From: Chloroflexi bacterium HGW-Chloroflexi-1
Lineage (GTDB): Bacteria > Chloroflexota > Anaerolineae > CG2-30-64-16
DNA: 36,727 nucleotides
NCBI GenBank assembly: GCA_002842085.1
Contig: PHCA01000001.1
Location: forward strand, 1,511-38,237
Reading direction: 5' to 3'
Shown here one piece after another: positions 11,831-32,221 of this stretch. Made by a program: the position numbers and the translations under genes. Every line of letters begins with the position of its first letter. The stretch's first letter is position 1. Under the pieces are notes generated by a model. That model was not told the DNA's origin, searched no databases, and saw nothing but the letters and a program-made list of their open reading frames with translations.

Positions 11831-11869
11831 GATGCCTCGCCTGTATCTTCCTCGGTTTTTCGGGGCATG

Positions 11870-11922
11870 CTGTAGCCGGTCTGTGACCGAGCCATCGTGG
11901 CCCGGTCACAGACCGGCCACAG
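11870..11922. repeat. near-perfect hairpin repeat, copy 1 of the TGTGGCCGGTCTGTGACCGAGCCA family
   Basis: ctgtagccggtctgtgaccgagcca-tcg-tggcccggtcacagaccggccacag; preceded by gtatcttcctcggtttttcgggg. Confidence 0.85.
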
Positions 11923-11949
11923 CCCCGGAGGTTAGGCCCTTATATCCTT

Positions 11950-12012
11950 GTCTACCAACCTACCAACCTACCAACCTACCAACCTACCAACCTACCAACC
12001 TACCAATCTACC
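11950..12012. repeat. octanucleotide array CTACCAAC/CTACCAAT
   Basis: ctaccaac repeated about 8 times. Confidence 0.9.
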
Positions 12013-12041
12013 AGGCATCACGATACCAGGAGGTAACAAGA

Positions 12042-12359
12042 ATGGCTACCCGTGTAATCGCAGGCAAGACCGTGCAGGTCAACGATGAAGGTTTTTTGAC
12101 TGAGCCAGGCGAATGGACGCGCGAGATCGGCCAGGTTCTGGCTCAAGAAGAGGGTGTTGGCGAGCTGACCGACGCGCACTGGAAGGTGATCGACTTCTGC
12201 CGCCAGGACGCCAAGGATTCGGGCAAGGCGCCGACGCTGCGCCGCATCACCGGCGCGGCCGGCGTGTCCACGAAGGATATGTTCAAGCTGTTCCCCAAAG
12301 GTCCGGCCAAGAAGGTCGCTCGGATCTCCGGTTTGGGCAAGCCCGAGGGGTGTGTGTGA
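12042..12359 (+). CDS. TusE/DsrC family sulfur-relay protein
   Basis: VNDEGFLTEPGEWTREIGQVLAQEEG...DAHWKVIDFCRQ...TLRRIT...KLFPKGPAKKVARISGLGKPEGCV with penultimate Cys; aggaggtaacaagATG. Confidence 0.85.
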   Translation: MATRVIAGKTVQVNDEGFLTEPGEWTREIGQVLAQEEGVGELTDAHWKVIDFCRQDAKDSGKAPTLRRITGAAGVSTKDMFKLFPKGPAKKVARISGLGKPEGCV

Positions 12360-12368
12360 GAGGGGATA

Positions 12369-12525
12369 TTGGGAAACTGGTAAATTGGTGAATTCGTAAA
12401 TTGGTAAATTGGTAGGTGGTAAATTGGTAAATTGGGGGTTGGTTCTTGGTGAATGGTGCGACTCCCCATCACTGTACCAATCTACCAATCTACCAACCTA
12501 CCAACCTACCAAACACCAATCAACC
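12369..12525. repeat. convergent pair of octanucleotide arrays (GGTAAATT-type then CCAATCTA-type)
   Basis: aaattggtaaattggtaggtggtaaattgg ... ccaatctaccaatctaccaacctaccaacc between dsrC and dsrE. Confidence 0.85.
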
Positions 12526-13177: not shown

Positions 13178-13277
13178 CGCCAGGTTCAGCGCGTCTCGGA
13201 TGCGGTACGGCACCCCATGGTCGACGGGTGCGGTGCGGAGTTTTGCGCTGCTCAGATAGTTCTGGAAAAATACTGTA

Positions 13278-14375
13278 TTAGGATAAAAGTCTGTAAATAC
13301 AATGCTGTTCCCCTCCTCGCATTACCCAACAACCACCATAACAATCAAATTTCGACTTACATTCGGCGCAGTATGGATCAGCCACAAGTATTTCACGGTT
13401 TCGATACCGCTTGAAACCGTTTTGCCAAATCTCCGTAAATGAATTCTCCAAAAGAGATCCCTCCCTGGTATCAACCGTATCTGGCTGTTCAGGACATCCT
13501 CTCACATTCCCATCAACTCCAATACAACATGCTAAAAATCCGATCGGACAAATCATTGGGCCGCCTCTAATTTTCTTCTCCCAGTCCCCTAAAAATGTCA
13601 AGTTCTCCCCAAGATAGATGCGTATTCCCTTTCTATCATTTTCCTTGATAAATCTAAACAAAGAAATCAATTGGTTGCTATCCAGCGAGACATCCGCGGC
13701 TTGTGCCCTCCCGATCGGCATGACTACGGTGAGTCTCCAAAGTTTAACCCCTAACTGTAAAAGTAAATGCCTCAACTCTCCAATTTCGGAGATATTCCGG
13801 GTAGTAACGGTTGTGGCAACGGATAGTAATGGAATCCGGAATTTGGTCAGTAGCCTGACTGCATTTACAGCCTTTGTGAAGCTTTGACAGTTGTTTCGTA
13901 TGCGATTGTGTGTTTGTTCCAGGCCATCCAGACTGATTTGCACAGAATAGATATTGGCATCTTTTATTCGTTCCGCCATTGAATGATCAATCAGTAAACC
14001 ATTTGTGGCTATCCCAGTTTTTAGACCTTGATGGTATGCATAAGACATAACTTCAAGTAAATCTCTCCGCAATAGTGGTTCTCCGCCTGTAACCGCAAAC
14101 ATATCAACTTTCAAAACTGAGAGATCATCCAGTATGTCTTTAATTTGCTCCGTTTTTAGTTCGCTAGAGTACGTCTCTTTTGTAGCACCGCAGTGGATAC
14201 AACTTAGATTGCATCGGCGTGTACAATCCCAAAGAACATACCTCGGTGGTGGTTTTTTCTTGTTTGCCCAATTCCGTTCACTAAATTCGCTTAGAAAATA
14301 GTCCATCCTCAACTTTGCAAGTTCGTATCGAAGATTTGGCATTTTTCCACTTGGGAAGATTTTCTTAGGGTGCAT
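13278..14375 (-). CDS. radical SAM/SPASM peptide-maturase-like protein
   Basis: CTRRCNLSCIHC (CxxxCxxC), VTGGEPLLR, SPASM CIGVDGNVRGC...CAECKSKFDCYGGC; start 14375 overlaps the upstream peptide stop (alternative ATG at 14342). Confidence 0.85.
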   Translation of the reverse strand: MHPKKIFPSGKMPNLRYELAKLRMDYFLSEFSERNWANKKKPPPRYVLWDCTRRCNLSCIHCGATKETYSSELKTEQIKDILDDLSVLKVDMFAVTGGEPLLRRDLLEVMSYAYHQGLKTGIATNGLLIDHSMAERIKDANIYSVQISLDGLEQTHNRIRNNCQSFTKAVNAVRLLTKFRIPLLSVATTVTTRNISEIGELRHLLLQLGVKLWRLTVVMPIGRAQAADVSLDSNQLISLFRFIKENDRKGIRIYLGENLTFLGDWEKKIRGGPMICPIGFLACCIGVDGNVRGCPEQPDTVDTREGSLLENSFTEIWQNGFKRYRNREILVADPYCAECKSKFDCYGGCWVMRGGEQHCIYRLLS

Positions 14376-14601
14376 AGTCGGGAGGAGGGCCATAGGCGAT
14401 GAATGCGTTGGGTAGCCAAACACTGAAAGAGAAACAACCCAACAACCCAGGGACAATAAAAGTCAGTAATAGGCCAATCACTAAGTAGGATCGCTTTCTC
14501 GTTCGGACATATCGGACGAGAAAAAAGATCCCAATGCCTGACGATATCAGACCAAGAACGATTACTCCTACGATGATCATGATTGAGTGTAGAGATAACA
14601 T
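14365..14601 (-). CDS. 78-aa two-TM peptide with C-terminal NAFIAYGPPPDYAP; candidate substrate/precursor of the adjacent SPASM enzyme
   Basis: Strong SD aaaggaggtactttgaaATG; TM segments; tail read from codons ...ATC GCC TAT GGC CCT CCT CCC GAC TAT GCA CCC TAA. Confidence 0.6.
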   Translation of the reverse strand: MLSLHSIMIIVGVIVLGLISSGIGIFFLVRYVRTRKRSYLVIGLLLTFIVPGLLGCFSFSVWLPNAFIAYGPPPDYAP

Positions 14602-14631
14602 TTCAAAGTACCTCCTTTTACGGGAGATTTC

Positions 14632-17951: not shown

Positions 17952-20900
17952 CTATTCGCCCGCCGGCAAGAAGCCCGGCGCTGATTCGACGGGCTTGCCG
18001 CGCCAGTGTGAGCGCTCGGCGTTGTCCGGGAAGCGGCGGAGGAGGGTGGCTCCGTCGGGCAGTTGGAGCTTGTCGCCCGGCTGGAGGTTGGCCTTGTTGG
18101 CCTTCTCGACCAGTGGTTTGGCTGGCAGGCTGAAGACGCCGATCCGGTCCCCCTGTTTGTGGTAGCGGCTCTGGATGTAGGCCAGCCCCAGGATCACGCC
18201 GTCCACGTCCACGGCCGCGCTGGTGACGTAGCCGATGGCCTGCCCCTTTTTGTTGATCACCGGATCGCCGGTCTTGGGCATCCGCACCCCGCGCTCGTTC
18301 ATGCGGAAACGGGCGATCTCCATCGTCCGCTGCTTTTCGCTGGCGATGTGCGCGGCCCGGCCGATGAAGTAAGGCTTATGCAGCTTGACGTAGCCGGGGA
18401 AGCCGGCGCCGACCGGCGAAATGTCGAAGTGGCCGGCCAGCTCGTGGCCGTAGAGCGGCAGGCCGGCCTCGGTCCGGGTGCTGTCGCGGGCGGCCAAACC
18501 GCACGGCTGCAGCCCGAACGGCTTGCCGGCTTCCAGCAGCGTCTCCCAGAACGCCACGGCCCGATCCGGGTGAATGAACAGCTCGTAGCCCACGTCCTCG
18601 CCGGTGTAGCCCGTTCGGGAGATTACGAGATCGAATCCGGCCAGATTACACTCGATCAGCCCGGTCTTGCGCACGCGGCCGATGCGATCCGCCAGCCGTG
18701 GGTCATCCACCATGCTCTGGAGGATGCGCAGGCTGGCCGGGCCCTGCAGCGCCAGGTCGACGCGCATGTCCGGCCCGCTTGACGGATCCTTCAGGTTGCG
18801 CAATGTGGTCGGGCGCAACACCTCGAGATCGGGCCGCTCGCGATCGATCAGCACCTCACTGCGGTTCACGGCGTTGATCCAGGCCCAATCCTTGTCCGCG
18901 TTGGACGCGTTGACCACCATCAGGTACTTGTCGCGCGCTCGCCGGTAGACCAGCAGGTCGTCGATCACCTTGCCGTCCGGGTCCAGGAAGTAGCTGTAGA
19001 AGCTCTCACCCGGCGCGTACCAGCGGACGTAGTTGGTGCAGACCAGGTCCAGGAATTCGGTGGCGTGGGGACCGCTGATTTCGAATACACCCATGTGGGC
19101 CACGTCGAACAGCCCGGCGTGTTTGCGGACCGCGTTGTGCTCGTCGAGCACGCCGGTGTACCAGACCGGCATCTCCCACCCGGCAAAGGGGATCACCCTG
19201 GTGGTGTGCGCCTTGTGCCATTCGTAGAGGGGGGTACGTTGGTAGATTGGTAGATTGGTAGATTGAGGGGTTGGCAGGTTGGTAGATTGGTAGATTGGTA
19301 GATTGGTAGATTGAACGGCGCGGACTTCGGCGAGGACGTGTTGGCCGACGAAATAGGGCTTGCGCAGCTCGAAGCGGGACGGCGCGACCCCGTACAGGTC
19401 GGCGCCGGAGGGACGTTCCTCGGTGACGTGAAAGCCCGTCGGGTCGTTCACCCCTAGCAGGCGTCCAGCCATGATCAACAAATCTACGTCAGGCTTGACC
19501 TCCGCCCACTCGTCGGGCGGAGGCGCAGCCGATGGCCGTGACATCGGCTGCCGGGTGACGGCCGCGAAGAGCCGTGAGACCATGTTCGGGCCGATCTGTG
19601 ACAGATCCTCAACGATCAGCGGCCCTTCGACCTTGGCGAGGAGATCGCTCCGATCGAAGATGATGTAGCCGTCTCCCAGGCCGCGCAGCCAGGCCTTGAC
19701 GCGCTCGTGGTGAACCGGCTGGGTGCGAAGGATGAAGCGGTCACGGCCGCGTTCGTCTTGCGGTAACCGCATCACTGCTACGTCGCTCATCAGCCGGCCG
19801 TCGGGATTTAGAATGAAGCCAAAACTATGCTCGCCGGGCGCTAACGCGCCCACATCGCAGGTGAGGATCTGGTTCAGGCCAGACTCGGCGCGTTCGCCGG
19901 TGACGAGGAGCAGGCCGGGGCGGAGGAGCGGCCCGGTCTGGAGACCGGCCCCAGCAGGATTGGGAAGCATATAGTAATGCGGATATCCCGTGCCCCGATT
20001 CTCGGTCTCGGCCACCCCCTTCGCCGCCAGCGCCGCGACCTCGGCCTTCACCTCCTCCAGCACGTCCAGTTCGATCTTGCCCCTGGGCAGCTCGCCCGCC
20101 AACCCCATGTAGCTGAACGGCCGGATGTTGGTCACAACCTTGTGAATCAGCCCGGCCACCTGATCCATCTCGGCTGGACCGAAGCCGCGCTGGGTGAGCC
20201 ACGGCGCGCCCAGGCGGATGCCCATCGCCAGGCCGGTCTGCGTGTCGCCGGGGATGGTGTTCTTGTTGGCGACGATGCCCGCCATGTCGAGGATGCGCAC
20301 GGCCGGTTCCCCGCGTAGGGGCGATCCCTTGCGGTCGCCCACGCTGTTGAGGTCCAACATGCAGAAATGGCTGTCGGTGCCGCCGTAGGCCAACCCCAGG
20401 CCGCGTTTCACCAGCCCGTCAGCCAACGCCGCGGCGTTTTCCTCGATCCCGAACATCATCCGCCGGAACGCCTTGCTCTGGGCGATCTTGAACATCACGG
20501 CCATGGCGGCGAACTTCTGCGGGTGGGGACCGCCCTGTTCGCCGGGGAAGACGGCCAGGTCAACCCGGCGGGCCAGTTCCTCGTCGGTGGTCACGATGAC
20601 CGCGCCGCGCGGCCCGCAGAGGGTCTTGTGCGTGGTGAAGGTGATCACGTCGGCGATGCCGACCGGGCTGGGGAACGCGCCCGCGGCCACCATGCCGGCC
20701 GGGTGGCTGATGTCGGCCAGCAGCAGCGCGCCGACCTCGTGCGCAATGGCCGCGAACGCCTGCCAGTCGGGCGCCCAGGTATACGACGTAAAGCCGGCGA
20801 TCATCATCTTGGGCCGGTGCCGCCGCGCCAGGTCGCGCAGCTCGTCGTAGTCCAGCTTGCCCGTGGTCTTGCTGACGCCGTAGGGGACGACGTGGTAGCG

Positions 20901-21434
20901 CTTGCCCGAGAAGTTGAACTCGGAGCCGTGGGTCAGGTGGCCGCCCTGGTAGAGATCCATGCCCATGACCGTGTCGCCGGCCTGCACCACGGTATCGTAG
21001 ACGGCCAGATTGGCCGCCGCGCCGGAGAGGGGCTGGACGTTGACATAAATATCGCCGGAGCTGACGCGCTCGTTGGCGAAGGTGTCCGCGCAGCGTCGTT
21101 GTGCGAGCGTCTCGACGAAATGGACGTAGTCTACGCCTTTGTAGAAGCGCCGATCGCCGTAGCGGCGGTAGTAGGCCAGCTCGTGATCGAAGTCGAGGAT
21201 GGTCTCCTCGTCCTCGCGGGTCATGCGGAGCGGGGGATAGCCCTCGGCATACACGTTGTTGAAGACCGAGCCGAGCGCCTGGCGGACGGCCTTCGGCGCG
21301 ATGGACTCGGAGGGGATCATGATCAGCTTGCGCGCCTGGCGCTCCTCCTCGAAGCCGATGATGGCGTCGGTGTCAGGGTCCACCAGGCCGATCTCGGCGC
21401 CGAGAAAAGTGTTCCAGTATTCGTGGTCGGGCAT
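17952..21434 (-). CDS. serine hydroxymethyltransferase fused to a partial GcvT-like region and a full aminomethyltransferase (GcvT)
   Basis: SHMT: LIMIPSESIAPKAV..., FTTHKTLCGPRGA; GcvT: RTPLYEWHKAHTTRVIPFAGWEMPVWY...RTGYTGEDVGYELFI...; one uninterrupted 1160-codon ORF. Confidence 0.85.
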   Translation of the reverse strand: MPDHEYWNTFLGAEIGLVDPDTDAIIGFEEERQARKLIMIPSESIAPKAVRQALGSVFNNVYAEGYPPLRMTREDEETILDFDHELAYYRRYGDRRFYKGVDYVHFVETLAQRRCADTFANERVSSGDIYVNVQPLSGAAANLAVYDTVVQAGDTVMGMDLYQGGHLTHGSEFNFSGKRYHVVPYGVSKTTGKLDYDELRDLARRHRPKMMIAGFTSYTWAPDWQAFAAIAHEVGALLLADISHPAGMVAAGAFPSPVGIADVITFTTHKTLCGPRGAVIVTTDEELARRVDLAVFPGEQGGPHPQKFAAMAVMFKIAQSKAFRRMMFGIEENAAALADGLVKRGLGLAYGGTDSHFCMLDLNSVGDRKGSPLRGEPAVRILDMAGIVANKNTIPGDTQTGLAMGIRLGAPWLTQRGFGPAEMDQVAGLIHKVVTNIRPFSYMGLAGELPRGKIELDVLEEVKAEVAALAAKGVAETENRGTGYPHYYMLPNPAGAGLQTGPLLRPGLLLVTGERAESGLNQILTCDVGALAPGEHSFGFILNPDGRLMSDVAVMRLPQDERGRDRFILRTQPVHHERVKAWLRGLGDGYIIFDRSDLLAKVEGPLIVEDLSQIGPNMVSRLFAAVTRQPMSRPSAAPPPDEWAEVKPDVDLLIMAGRLLGVNDPTGFHVTEERPSGADLYGVAPSRFELRKPYFVGQHVLAEVRAVQSTNLPIYQSTNLPTPQSTNLPIYQRTPLYEWHKAHTTRVIPFAGWEMPVWYTGVLDEHNAVRKHAGLFDVAHMGVFEISGPHATEFLDLVCTNYVRWYAPGESFYSYFLDPDGKVIDDLLVYRRARDKYLMVVNASNADKDWAWINAVNRSEVLIDRERPDLEVLRPTTLRNLKDPSSGPDMRVDLALQGPASLRILQSMVDDPRLADRIGRVRKTGLIECNLAGFDLVISRTGYTGEDVGYELFIHPDRAVAFWETLLEAGKPFGLQPCGLAARDSTRTEAGLPLYGHELAGHFDISPVGAGFPGYVKLHKPYFIGRAAHIASEKQRTMEIARFRMNERGVRMPKTGDPVINKKGQAIGYVTSAAVDVDGVILGLAYIQSRYHKQGDRIGVFSLPAKPLVEKANKANLQPGDKLQLPDGATLLRRFPDNAERSHWRGKPVESAPGFLPAGE
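19239..19314. repeat. octanucleotide array TTGGTAGA inside the SHMT-GcvT ORF, encoding QSTNLPIYQSTNLPTPQSTNLPIYQ
   Basis: ttggtagattggtagattggtagattgaggggttggcaggttggtagattggtagattggtagattggtagattg read directly. Confidence 0.95.
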
Positions 21435-27618: not shown

Positions 27619-28017
27619 TTATTTCAACAACCCTAAGCCACCACTTCGCAATCGTCGAACGGCTTCCTTCGTCGTGTTCAGCCCCAATGTGACGCACTTG
27701 AGCCGGGTGGCGGCCATCTCGCGCCCCATCAAGTCCAGGATTGCCTCGGCCGACGTGGCCTCTACGTCAGCCACCGTCTTGCCGGTGAACATCTCGGTCA
27801 CAATGGATGCCCCCGCCTGGCTGATGGTGCACCCTTCGCCCTCGAACGAAATGTCAGAGATGCGGCCGTCGCCGTCGGCCTTCAGGTAAACCGTCACCAC
27901 GTCACCGCAGCCTGGGTTGACGCCCGTGGCGGTCGCCGCGGCATCCGCCAGCGCGCCGTAATGCCGCGGGTTTTCGTAATGGTCCAGGATGAAGTCAATT
28001 TGGGCTTGGCGATCCAT
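27619..28017 (-). CDS. sufU: SufU-like protein, second paralog
   Basis: DRQAQIDFILDHYENPRHYGALADAAATATGVNPGCGDVVTVYLK...GEGCTISQAGAS...RLKCVTL. Confidence 0.85.
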   Translation of the reverse strand: MDRQAQIDFILDHYENPRHYGALADAAATATGVNPGCGDVVTVYLKADGDGRISDISFEGEGCTISQAGASIVTEMFTGKTVADVEATSAEAILDLMGREMAATRLKCVTLGLNTTKEAVRRLRSGGLGLLK

Positions 28018-28028
28018 GGCAGCAGTAT

Positions 28029-28245
28029 ATCGGTAAATTGGTAGATTGGTAAATTGGGAACGGGTAGATTGGTAAATTGGGGAGCGATAGATTGGGGAGT
28101 GGTAGATTGGTAGCTTGGGGAGCGATAGACTAGCAAGCTGGGAATTGAAACTCGGCGCCCAACGACCGACCCGTTTATCCACCAATCCACCAATCTACCA
28201 ATCCACCAATCCACCAATCTACCAATCTACCAATCTACCAATCTA
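28029..28245. repeat. convergent octanucleotide arrays between sufD and sufU
   Basis: ggtaaattggtagattgg... then ccaatctaccaatccaccaatccacc... Confidence 0.85.
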
Positions 28246-29568
28246 CAACCCCACCTTCCGCGCGATCTCCGTCTCCAACTTGCTCCGCACCCCTTCCACC
28301 GGGATCCGATCGATCACTTCCTCCAGGAAGCCCTGCACGATCATGCGTTCGGCGTTGCCGCGGTCAATGCCGCGGGCCATCAGGTAGAAGATGTATTCTT
28401 CGGGAATCTGCCCCGCGGTGGCGCCGTGCGTGCAGCGCACATCGTCCGCCTCGATCTCCAGGCCGGGGATGCTGTCGGCGCGGGCCATCTTGCTCAACAT
28501 CAGGTTGCGATTGGCCTGGTAGGCGTTGGTCTTCTGCGCCTGCGGATAGACCTTGACGTAGCCCTGGTAGACCGACCGCGCCCGATCCTTGAGCGCGCCC
28601 TTGAAGAGCAGGTCGCTGGTGGCGTGCGGCGACTTGTGCAACTGGTTCGTGTGGTGATCGAGATGCTGCCGGCCGCCGGGAACGTAAAGCCCCAGCAGCT
28701 CGCCGTGGCTGCCCGGGCCGTTCAGCTCCATGTTGATCCAGTTCTTGCTCAACCGGCTGCCCCACGAGCCGATGAAGTAGCGCAGCAGGCTGTCGCGGGT
28801 GAGCAGCATCCGCTGCGTGCTGAAGTTCCATGCCGTATCGGCCAGGTTTTGCAGATGCAGATAGTGCACCTGGCTGTTGACGCCGGGCAACAACTCGACG
28901 ACGCTGTTGGTCATCCCGCCGGCCGCGCCCACGAAGTCCTCCACCAGCGTCACCGCCGCGCCCTCTTCGGTCACGACCAGCGTGTGGTGCATCCCCGCCA
29001 GCTTGCCCGCGCTCTGGCTGATGACGGCCTGGAGCGGCTTGTCAATGGTCACGTTGCGGGGTACATAAACAAATGTGCCGCTGTTCCAGAGCGCATAGTG
29101 CAGCGCGCTGAACTTGTTCTCGTCGGTGGCGACCGCGGTGTTGAAATGCCGCTGCACCAACTCCGGATACGCGCGACAGGCGGTGTCCAGGTCGGTGAAG
29201 ATCACGCCGCGGGCGGCCAGGGCCGGGTCCAGACTGTACCGGGCCGCCGCCCCATCCACGATCGCCAGTTCACCGACGCTCTCGACCTCGGATAAGCTCT
29301 TCTCGACCTCGGCCGGCAGCGTTGCCGGATCACCTGGAGTCGAGGCTTTAGCCGGTTGGCCGCCTGATGGCTCTACTCCAGTTCCTCCGGCGAAAGGCCG
29401 GTAATCCTCCAGCCTGAAGCCGGTGAGCCGCGTTCGGCGCCACGTCTCCTCGTTGCCCGTGGGCCAGGGCATCTCCTCGAAGAATCGCCACGCCTTCTGC
29501 CGCAAATCCAGCATCCAGGTCGGCTCGACGGGGGAGGCGGCGGGGATGGGGAATGTGTGTGTTGTCAT
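28243..29568 (-). CDS. sufD: SufD Fe-S cluster assembly protein
   Basis: MTTHTFPIPAASP...GTFVYVPRNVTIDKPLQAVI...MELNGPGSHGELLGLYVPGGRQHLDHHTNQLHKSPHATSDLLFKG. Confidence 0.9.
   Translation of the reverse strand: MTTHTFPIPAASPVEPTWMLDLRQKAWRFFEEMPWPTGNEETWRRTRLTGFRLEDYRPFAGGTGVEPSGGQPAKASTPGDPATLPAEVEKSLSEVESVGELAIVDGAAARYSLDPALAARGVIFTDLDTACRAYPELVQRHFNTAVATDENKFSALHYALWNSGTFVYVPRNVTIDKPLQAVISQSAGKLAGMHHTLVVTEEGAAVTLVEDFVGAAGGMTNSVVELLPGVNSQVHYLHLQNLADTAWNFSTQRMLLTRDSLLRYFIGSWGSRLSKNWINMELNGPGSHGELLGLYVPGGRQHLDHHTNQLHKSPHATSDLLFKGALKDRARSVYQGYVKVYPQAQKTNAYQANRNLMLSKMARADSIPGLEIEADDVRCTHGATAGQIPEEYIFYLMARGIDRGNAERMIVQGFLEEVIDRIPVEGVRSKLETEIARKVGL
29334..29381. repeat. palindromic element inside the sufD coding sequence
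   Basis: ctggagtcgaggctttagccgg...gatggctctactccag; shares exact tcgaggctttagccgg with 33241-33256. Confidence 0.6.
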
Positions 29569-29591
29569 AGTTGTTTCCGTCGATGGGGAGG

Positions 29592-29719
29592 CGGGTAGAT
29601 TGGTACATTGGTAAACTGGTAAATCGGTAAATTGGTAAACTGGTAAATTGGTAAACTGGGCTTGTACTGATGCGAAGCCAGAACCCAATCTACCAACCTA
29701 CCAATCTACCAATCTACCA
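29592..29719. repeat. convergent octanucleotide arrays between sufB and sufD
   Basis: ggtaaactggtaaatcggtaaattgg... then ccaatctaccaacctaccaatctaccaatctacc. Confidence 0.85.
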
Positions 29720-32221
29720 TCACCCCACCGTCCCTTCCATCTGCAACTGAATCAGTCGATTCAACTCCACCGCGTACTCCATCGGCAGTTCCTTGACCAT
29801 CGGCTCGATGAAACCGGAGACGATCATGGCGCTGGCTGCGTCCTCCGCCAGGCCGCGGCTCTGGAGATAGAAGAGCTGCTCTTCGCCGATCTTGCTGACC
29901 GACGCCTCGTGGCCGACGGTGATATCGTCCTCGTCGATCTCGATGTACGGGTAGGTGTCGGAGCGGCTGCGCTCGTCCAACAGCAGCGCGTCGCAGACCA
30001 CGTTCGACCTGGCGCCGTGGCTGCCCTTGCTGACTTTCAGCAGGCCGCGATAGCTGGCGCGGCCGCCGCCCTTGCTGATGGACTTCGAGATGAGCTGGCT
30101 GCTCGTGTTCGGCGCGGCGTGCACCAGCTTGCCGCCGGTGTCCAGGTGTTGACCGGGGCCGGCAAACGCCATCGAGAGGATCTGGCCGTGCGCACCCTCG
30201 CCCAGCATGTAGACCGACGGATACTTCATGGTGGTCTTCGACCCCATGTTGGCATCAACCCATTCCATTGTCCCATTTTCATACACCAGCGATCTTTGTG
30301 TCACCAGGTTGTAGACGTTGGTAGACCAGTTCTGAATCGTTGTGTAGCGGCAACGGGCGTTCTTGCGGACGATGATCTCGATGACGCCGCTATGCAGTGA
30401 ATCTGTCGAATATATTGGTGCTGTGCAACCTTCTACGTAGTGCACACTCGCGCCTTCGTCCACGATGATCAGCGTGCGCTCGAACTGCCCCATGCTCTGC
30501 GCGTTGATGCGGAAATAGGCCTGGAGCGGGATGTCGAGATGTACCCCTTTCGGCACGTAGACGAACGACCCGCCCGACCAGCACGCGGTGTTCAGCGCCG
30601 CGAAGCGCGCAGGCCGCTGTCGCTGTCCACGAAGATGACGCCTTGCTTTTCCCACTCTTGCTTAAGGGAATGGTATACAGCTTCGGAGTTGTGAACGATC
30701 AACCCTTCAGCGACGAAATTGTGCGGGCCATCCACTTCGATGTCATAGACCGGCTCGATGCCCGCCGGAATGATGCTCTTGATGCGGGCAAAGCCCACGA
30801 ACTCGTTCGTGTGGTGTCGGAAGGTGGTGCCCTTGCTACTCGAATAGTCGTGGCGAAAACGTCGCTTACCCAGGCGTTCTGTTCGCTGTGGGGAGCGGCA
30901 GCCCAGGCGTTCGAATTCTCCGCTCAACTGCATTCGGTAGCCATCGACATAGCGTTCCTCGTCGTAAGGATGCTTGGACGCGAAGTGGTGGATAGCTGAT
31001 GTGGGGATGCCACACGACAGAGCCAACGCTTGGACTTGCTGCAGAAGCTCGTTGTTGCCGCTGGTGATGACTACGTCATGGCTTGTTGGGTGATCGCGCA
31101 CGTAGCCATCGGCATCCACATACCCGCCCAGGAACGCCAGCCGTTCGCTTTCTGGCAAGGTATGTACCCATTGCGGAATCCGTTTCGTCAGCGCACGACC
31201 GGCAAGACCGTTGACTTCCGGATAGCGCGCCAGGATCGTCGAGTACACCGTCATGCGATTGGGATCGCCATTGGTCGCCGTGATATCAAATACTGACTGG
31301 GTGACGTTCTTGAATTCTGTCCGCAGTGGCGCGTCCGTCTCAGGAATGGCGAACTCCACACGCGCCTTATCGGCGCCTTTGTGGTAATGAATGAAGCCAT
31401 CGCCCACGTAGAGGCCCAACCACCACATCAGATCGGTGGAGGTAGTGGTTGGAAGCGAGACACGATTGTAGCTGCCGGTGATGTCCGGATCGTATTTGAC
31501 GCCCGTCTGATTGCTTCCGACGACTTTGGTTTTGACGTTGGGCATGGTAAGGGTGTACGGCTGTCCTGCATCTGGAAGCTTCTTCGCAACGGCCACCAGG
31601 TCGCCGGGCTTCAGATCACGCAAATACTTCCACTCGCGTGTAAAGCGCCCGCGCTGCTTACCTTCCTCGCGGCGATAGGAAAGGGTCAAAAAGGGGTGGT
31701 TCGATGTGGCGCGAATCGTCTTCGTATGAACTCGCAACTCGAACACCTCGCGCTCACCCTTATCCATCTTGGCCTTGACAGGGGCTGAGATTAGCCGGTT
31801 TTGCGCTTCGTCAAAGGCAAATACGATGTCACCAGGCTCGATCTCGCGAATCGGCGTCAGGCCGCGGGCCGTGGCAACGCGTGTAGTGCCGCTCAAACAC
31901 TCATACTGCGCGCCCGCGCCGGCGAGAAACTTGCGCTCCGCCTCGGGGATGCCGAGCCTGTCGAACGTCTCCTTGATGTCGGCCGGCACGTCATCCCAGC
32001 TCCCAGGTCGGGATCGGCCTGGAGAAGAAGATGTCCAGCGCGGCGTGGCGGTATTTCCGCATCCACTCCGGTTCGCGCTTCATGGCGCTGATCTGGTCCA
32101 CGATGTCGTGGTCCAGTCCCTTGCGCGCCTTGAAAACGTATTTTTCCGGCTGGCTGAACCCGTATTTGTACTCGTCCTTGAGGTCGGCAAGGACCGCGCG
32201 GTCGGTGCTCGTTGCAGACAT
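29720..32221 (-). pseudogene. sufB: SufB, split by an intein and by two exon deletions/frameshifts
   Basis: N-exon MSATSTDRAVLADLKDEYKYGF...SRPIPTW; middle [55 protein letters not shown]-exon [34 protein letters not shown]...LEMEG-type end. Confidence 0.85.
30688..31899 (-). other. 404-aa intein with LAGLIDADG homing endonuclease inserted in SufB
   Basis: Cys1 [22 protein letters not shown] block [11 protein letters not shown] and [33 protein letters not shown]. Confidence 0.95.

Follow-up and report, generated by a model that had tools for sequence, protein, structure and literature searches.

Which reaction does a radical SAM/SPASM enzyme perform on a small membrane peptide encoded next to it, and where does the product reside? 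This question is raised by two adjacent genes in a 36,727 nt stretch of the genome of Chloroflexi bacterium HGW-Chloroflexi-1, here called the window. A sequence-only reading had described the genes as a RiPP-like precursor and maturase, and had not assigned the peptide to any class known to it. Here the pair is compared with its ortholog, with homologs of the enzyme and their neighbour genes, and with named radical SAM/SPASM families.

The gene pair and its ortholog

The peptide gene and its near-consensus Shine-Dalgarno sequence were found as previously read, and the features of the locus are listed in Table 1.

Table 1. Features of the gene pair, with positions in the window.
Feature	Position	Strand	Basis
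Two-TM putative substrate peptide (P0001), 78 aa	14365..14601	-	ORF and translation; ortholog (L022) 45% identical; codon-level selection
Predicted splice motif XYGxP, A69-Y70-G71-P72-P73-P74	14380..14397	-	VYGPPP in ortholog; XYGxP near 22/24 clade enzymes
Shine-Dalgarno sequence of the peptide gene, AAGGAGGT	14610..14617	-	Sequence; near-perfect
Radical SAM/SPASM maturase (P0002), 365 aa	13278..14375	-	Pfam Radical_SAM 2e-22, SPASM 1e-5; likely true start Met12 at 14342
Radical SAM cluster motif CNLSCIHC, clade-diagnostic Gly63 right behind	14190..14213	-	
SPASM cysteine region: C276, C294, C336, C339, C345, C349, C359	13299..13550	-	
Low-GC cassette with both genes (coding 42-45% GC)	13260..14625	.	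Missing next to the corresponding neighbour gene of G131, a genome of the same genus

The peptide consists of two hydrophobic segments (residues ~7-25 and ~40-58), which are separated by the basic loop RYVRTRKR, and of the tail NAFIAYGPPPDYAP with the end IAYGPPPDYAP. According to the positive-inside rule, the basic loop of a membrane protein lies on the cytoplasmic side. The loop is therefore predicted to be cytoplasmic and both termini to face outward. The earlier view of the TM part as a membrane anchor is supported. For the enzyme gene, an ATG overlapping the peptide stop had been noted as a possible start. This codon exists at 14375, with an overlap of 11 nt (ATGCACCCTAA), but since the only close enzyme ortholog (L022/L004) aligns from Met12, 22 nt past the peptide stop, the downstream start is the probable one and the overlap is uncertain. 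The AlphaFold model of the enzyme (mean pLDDT 80) has an SkfB/PqqE-type fold with an N-terminal helix of residues 15-36 and contains no RRE. Promoter, terminator and repeat scans yielded nothing for the pair.

The ortholog pair is located in an Anaerolineae isolate from a different family of the class (fen_1073, PLND01000104.1), where a 79-aa two-TM peptide ending VVYGPPPSNYIP precedes an enzyme 64% identical to that of the window. The two peptides share 35 of 78 residues. Their codons differ at 37 first, 19 second and 56 third positions, and 25 identical residues are encoded by synonymous codons, which argues for selection at the protein level. The peptide thus shows the conservation of protein sequence whose absence the earlier reading had named as evidence against its proposal. 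Its YGPPP-xYxP tail is common to both peptides, in support of the tail as the modified site.

Among samples of about 300 genomes of the class and 400 of the phylum, an ortholog of the enzyme was present in only one other genome. Within the 400 phylum genomes, only the two that bear the enzyme yielded the peptide, apart from one weak match (E 4e-4) that spans TM residues 8-53 only, so no convincing peptide orphan was detected. Owing to the rarity of both genes in the phylum, the linkage of this exact peptide is backed by only one ortholog pair, and the second TM segment (IGLLLTF..PG) is conserved to the same degree as the tail. These two points would suit a functional small membrane protein, such as a sensor or transporter subunit, with the tail as binding or regulatory handle, or accidental neighbours from one acquisition. 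Such an explanation is very improbable: the genes are adjacent in two families despite different flanks (ABC transporter genes adjoin the pair in the isolate), they are either both present or both absent in the sampled Chloroflexota, and otherwise unrelated motif-bearing partners of related enzymes recur across phyla, as described below.

The surrounding DNA has a GC content of about 62%, well above that of the two genes. The gene to the right of the pair is retained in the same-genus genome G131 (86%), where the pair itself does not occur at this site. Together with the rarity of the pair, this suggests that a small cassette was gained horizontally. The adjoining radical SAM gene (15339-14632) was rejected as a part of the system, as it persists in G131 without the pair beside it. 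In the own genome no paralogs of the peptide and no close paralogs of the enzyme were found, and the other radical SAM proteins with a readable motif have no CxxxCxxCG. The viral contigs that were searched contained no relatives of the enzyme.

Relatives of the enzyme and the motif of their neighbours

For the analysis of gene neighbourhoods, 80 homologs from a scan of the genome collection were combined with Chloroflexota matches and plasmid records to a set of 96 enzymes. In the tree of this set, the window enzyme and its ortholog belong to a 24-row group with two further Chloroflexota enzymes (L005, L006) and enzymes of Coriobacteria, Spirochaetota and Bacteroidota. A same-strand neighbour ORF with YGxP is present for 22 of the 24 enzymes; L028 has CYGVEP instead and only L044 has none. 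Among the heme- and mycofactocin-type homologs any YGxP neighbour ORF was found for 7/66, with an ORF of at least 75 aa in 2. Fisher values for this association are 7e-13 and 1e-16 when relatedness is ignored, and on the tree the neighbour label requires 4 changes compared with ~21 in shuffles. SPASM homologs without a Tyr/Pro neighbour, which the sequence-only reading had named as evidence against its proposal, are thus the exception in the 24-row group, and the precursor/maturase pairing is supported.

The partners themselves are not one protein but several: TIGR04134-type lipoproteins, Coriobacterial lipoprotein-like proteins, the L005/L006 type, whose N-terminus is hydrophobic and which contains YGPP/YGIP three times plus a TM segment at the C-terminus, and the two-TM peptide. 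In the membrane-anchored partners a lipobox or TM segment invariably precedes the motif, which lies near this anchor and is expected on the outer face in all of them. In the Coriobacteria (L036, L061, L068) the lipoprotein-like genes adjoining TIGR04133-like enzymes contain up to five YGxP copies with acidic linkers in between, and multi-site modification of these proteins is possible.

A careful, unrooted tree was calculated for 60 enzymes, in which the 31 controls are heme- and mycofactocin-type enzymes only. In this unrooted tree 23 TIGR04133-like enzymes, including that of the window, and 6 PlpX/GDL-type enzymes lie together on one side of a branch with a support of 98/97. The 23-enzyme group alone is supported with 84/64, and in a larger quick tree the grouping of the window enzyme with TIGR04133-like enzymes has an SH-aLRT value of 95. 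The window enzyme and its ortholog form a long branch (1.16). Three residues distinguish the two sides: G63, following the third cluster cysteine (29/29 on the PlpX/TIGR04133 side, 0/31 controls), A224 (28/29 and 1/31) and R270 (28/29 and 4/31).

TIGR04133, a radical SAM/SPASM maturase model paired with TIGR04134 ('radical SAM-associated putative lipoprotein'), is the nearest named model of the window enzyme with 226 bits (ortholog 214 bits). As in TIGR04133/TIGR04134 pairs, the partner is encoded next door and is membrane-anchored; there EYGTP, CYGTP or EYGMPPPDY directly follows the anchor. Unlike TIGR04133 members, the window enzyme remains below the cut-off of 425 bits and forms its own deep branch. 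Where TIGR04134 partners have a lipobox and a downstream domain, the partner of the window enzyme shows two TM helices with the tail at the C-terminus; neither a TIGR04134 match nor a lipobox was found in the window peptide. To our knowledge, splicease activity has not been demonstrated for any member of the TIGR04133-like group.

The GDL motif peptide-associated maturase model (TIGR03913) is reached with 119 bits at a cut-off of 592. Enzymes of GDL loci are likewise on the PlpX tree side, but their partners are soluble tandem DUF1843 proteins with no YGxP. Such tandem DUF1843 genes were observed beside GDL-type enzymes on Azospirillum plasmids (L110, L111) and in Aureibacter (L105); some of the encoded proteins have an N-terminal XYG (PYGAGI, LYGGAM; in Azospirillum PYG or LYG) and may be splicease substrates. 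On the Agathobacter rectalis plasmid NZ_CP143948.1, a radical SAM gene of the PlpX side is immediately preceded by an unannotated small ORF ending NLFGPVMYGTGVRM (L106 2687-2896), whose product is a splicease substrate candidate from a gut bacterium.

Two further assignments were rejected. Heme-type (AhbD-NirJ) enzymes fall across the branch, and most of them lack a YGxP partner; the good model scores are attributed to superfamily kinship. A mycofactocin assignment was discarded on the basis of model score, precursor terminus and tree side: the enzyme scores 156 bits with the MftC model (TIGR03962, cut-off 265), and MftA-type precursors end GVY/VY whereas the window peptide ends YAP.

Proposed chemistry at the tyrosine and fate of the tail

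PlpX of Pleurocapsa, an enzyme of the TIGR04103 type, excises tyramine at X-Tyr-Gly together with PlpY, whereupon the backbone is rejoined, and it accepts tags like PIRPLYGLPI and leader-free protein substrates (PMC10533398, PMC11002830, PMC10373908). For TIGR04103 substrates the comparison uses one locus, on a plasmid of Nostoc sp. C057, in which a Nif11 precursor ending GGRGSIALYGLPPELF (ALYGLPPELF) lies upstream of the enzyme (853 bits, cut-off 725) and a 71-aa protein follows in the position of PlpY. As in this locus, the window enzyme adjoins a small gene with XYGxP(P), the X-Tyr-Gly site being AYGPPP in the window, VYGPPP in the ortholog and LYGLPP in Nostoc, and it shares the tree side and the three diagnostic residues with PlpX-type enzymes. 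Since nearly all relatives of the enzyme, including the splicease family, adjoin a protein with the same motif, a backbone change at the tyrosine is probable.

We therefore consider it likely, judging from sequence comparison, that the pair carries out a splicease-type excision at Ala69-Tyr70-Gly71 and displays the product outside the membrane. Against tyramine excision stand the long branch and the lower support of the 23-enzyme group, as well as the differences from PlpX systems: the window enzyme reaches 131 of the 725 bits required for TIGR04103 (nif11-class peptide radical SAM maturase 3), no PlpY-like ORF lies beside the pair, the peptide gave no Pfam or NCBIfam match above cut-off that would indicate a Nif11/NHLP leader, and the substrate would be a two-TM membrane peptide. 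The N-terminal helix seen in the enzyme model may act as a stand-in for PlpY, which is a conjecture. The pair thus appears to be splicease-like and deep-branching, outside both TIGR04103 and TIGR04133 by their cut-offs, and has no PlpY, leader or lipobox. Where the earlier reading could name no class, the motif and the branch of the enzyme point to the splicease (tyramine-excision) family.

A different tyrosine chemistry on the YGPPP tail of a real pair, namely a cross-link to a neighbouring residue, MftC-like oxidative decarboxylation or cyclisation, or epimerisation, is unlikely but deserves serious consideration. SPASM enzymes catalyse many reactions, the closest folds, SkfB and PqqE, belong to thioether and C-C bond makers, and the surroundings of the motif are Pro-rich, unlike those in some PlpX cores. 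MftC, the second-best model, is also a SPASM enzyme with the tyrosine of a small neighbour peptide as target. MftC-type enzymes, however, are found across the 98/97 branch of the unrooted tree and have neither G63 nor A224. Furthermore, the invariant Tyr-Gly of the partner motif is the splicease signature, the Nostoc TIGR04103 substrate has the same YGxPP, and the tail offers no Cys and no Lys or Trp as cross-link partner. A search for a solved TIGR04103-type enzyme structure with which active sites could be compared gave none.

In the proposed splicease mechanism, the enzyme would recognise X-Tyr-Gly-x-Pro in the C-terminal tail of the two-TM peptide and, presumably in the cytoplasm prior to membrane insertion, would excise tyramine with an expected shift of -135.07 Da. 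The two TM helices would hold the tail just outside the cytoplasmic membrane, where the resulting ketoamide would be electrophilic and might serve, for example, as an electrophilic protease trap. Spliceotide products have been described as protease inhibitors (PMC11117315). Owing to this inhibition and to the electrophilic nature of a ketoamide, a tethered protease trap or cross-link site is a plausible role by analogy.

Alternatively, the modified tail could be cut off and freed as a small bioactive peptide, i.e. a secreted RiPP natural product. The gene order is RiPP-like, cyanobacterial spliceotides are of this released type (PMC11002830), and a membrane protease could free the 10-residue tail. 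No leader, protease or exporter gene adjoins the pair in the window, though such genes could lie elsewhere in the genome; in other partners the motif is placed with the anchor on one side and a long repeat or folded domain on the other, a position from which release would hardly make sense. Secretion of a free peptide is accordingly regarded as improbable; it concerns only the fate of the product, would fit the same chemistry, and overlaps in weight with the favoured splicease reading. Of the label 'RiPP-like', the substrate/maturase relationship stands and the narrow sense, in which a leader is removed and the core exported, is unsupported. A modified membrane protein fits the pair better.

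As a possibility somewhat less likely than not, the XYGxP membrane proteins of Chloroflexota, Bacteroidota, Spirochaetota and Coriobacteria could be structural proteins that are armed with ketoamides by splicease-type enzymes immediately outside the membrane. They would then form a cell-surface electrophile system, acting as covalent protease trap or cross-linker, on several unrelated anchors, among them this two-TM peptide, instead of being natural-product precursors. Through the splicease reading, one known and unusual reaction, the splicing of a protein backbone with loss of tyramine, is connected with gene families of which little functional knowledge exists (TIGR04133, TIGR04134 and the two-TM peptide, which has no family name). 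If it is true, ketoamide proteins would be exposed on the outer faces of membranes in common gut and environmental bacteria, and the spliceases of this lineage, which are leader-free and apparently act without a partner, could be handy for labelling.

Further features of the window

Outside the pair, a 1160-aa ORF (17952-21434, minus strand) fuses serine hydroxymethyltransferase-like and glycine cleavage T-protein-like halves via the linker STNLPIYQSTNLPTPQSTNLPIYQ, which is encoded in frame by a dispersed short repeat. A short tandem repeat reading NLPTYQPTNLPIYQ occurs between genes throughout the window (11832-12100, 12409-12500, 27619-28185 and 28243-29710). On the minus strand at 29720-31989, SufB with an apparent intein is encoded; its C-terminal part is in another frame (30655-29720), possibly through a frameshift or an assembly error.
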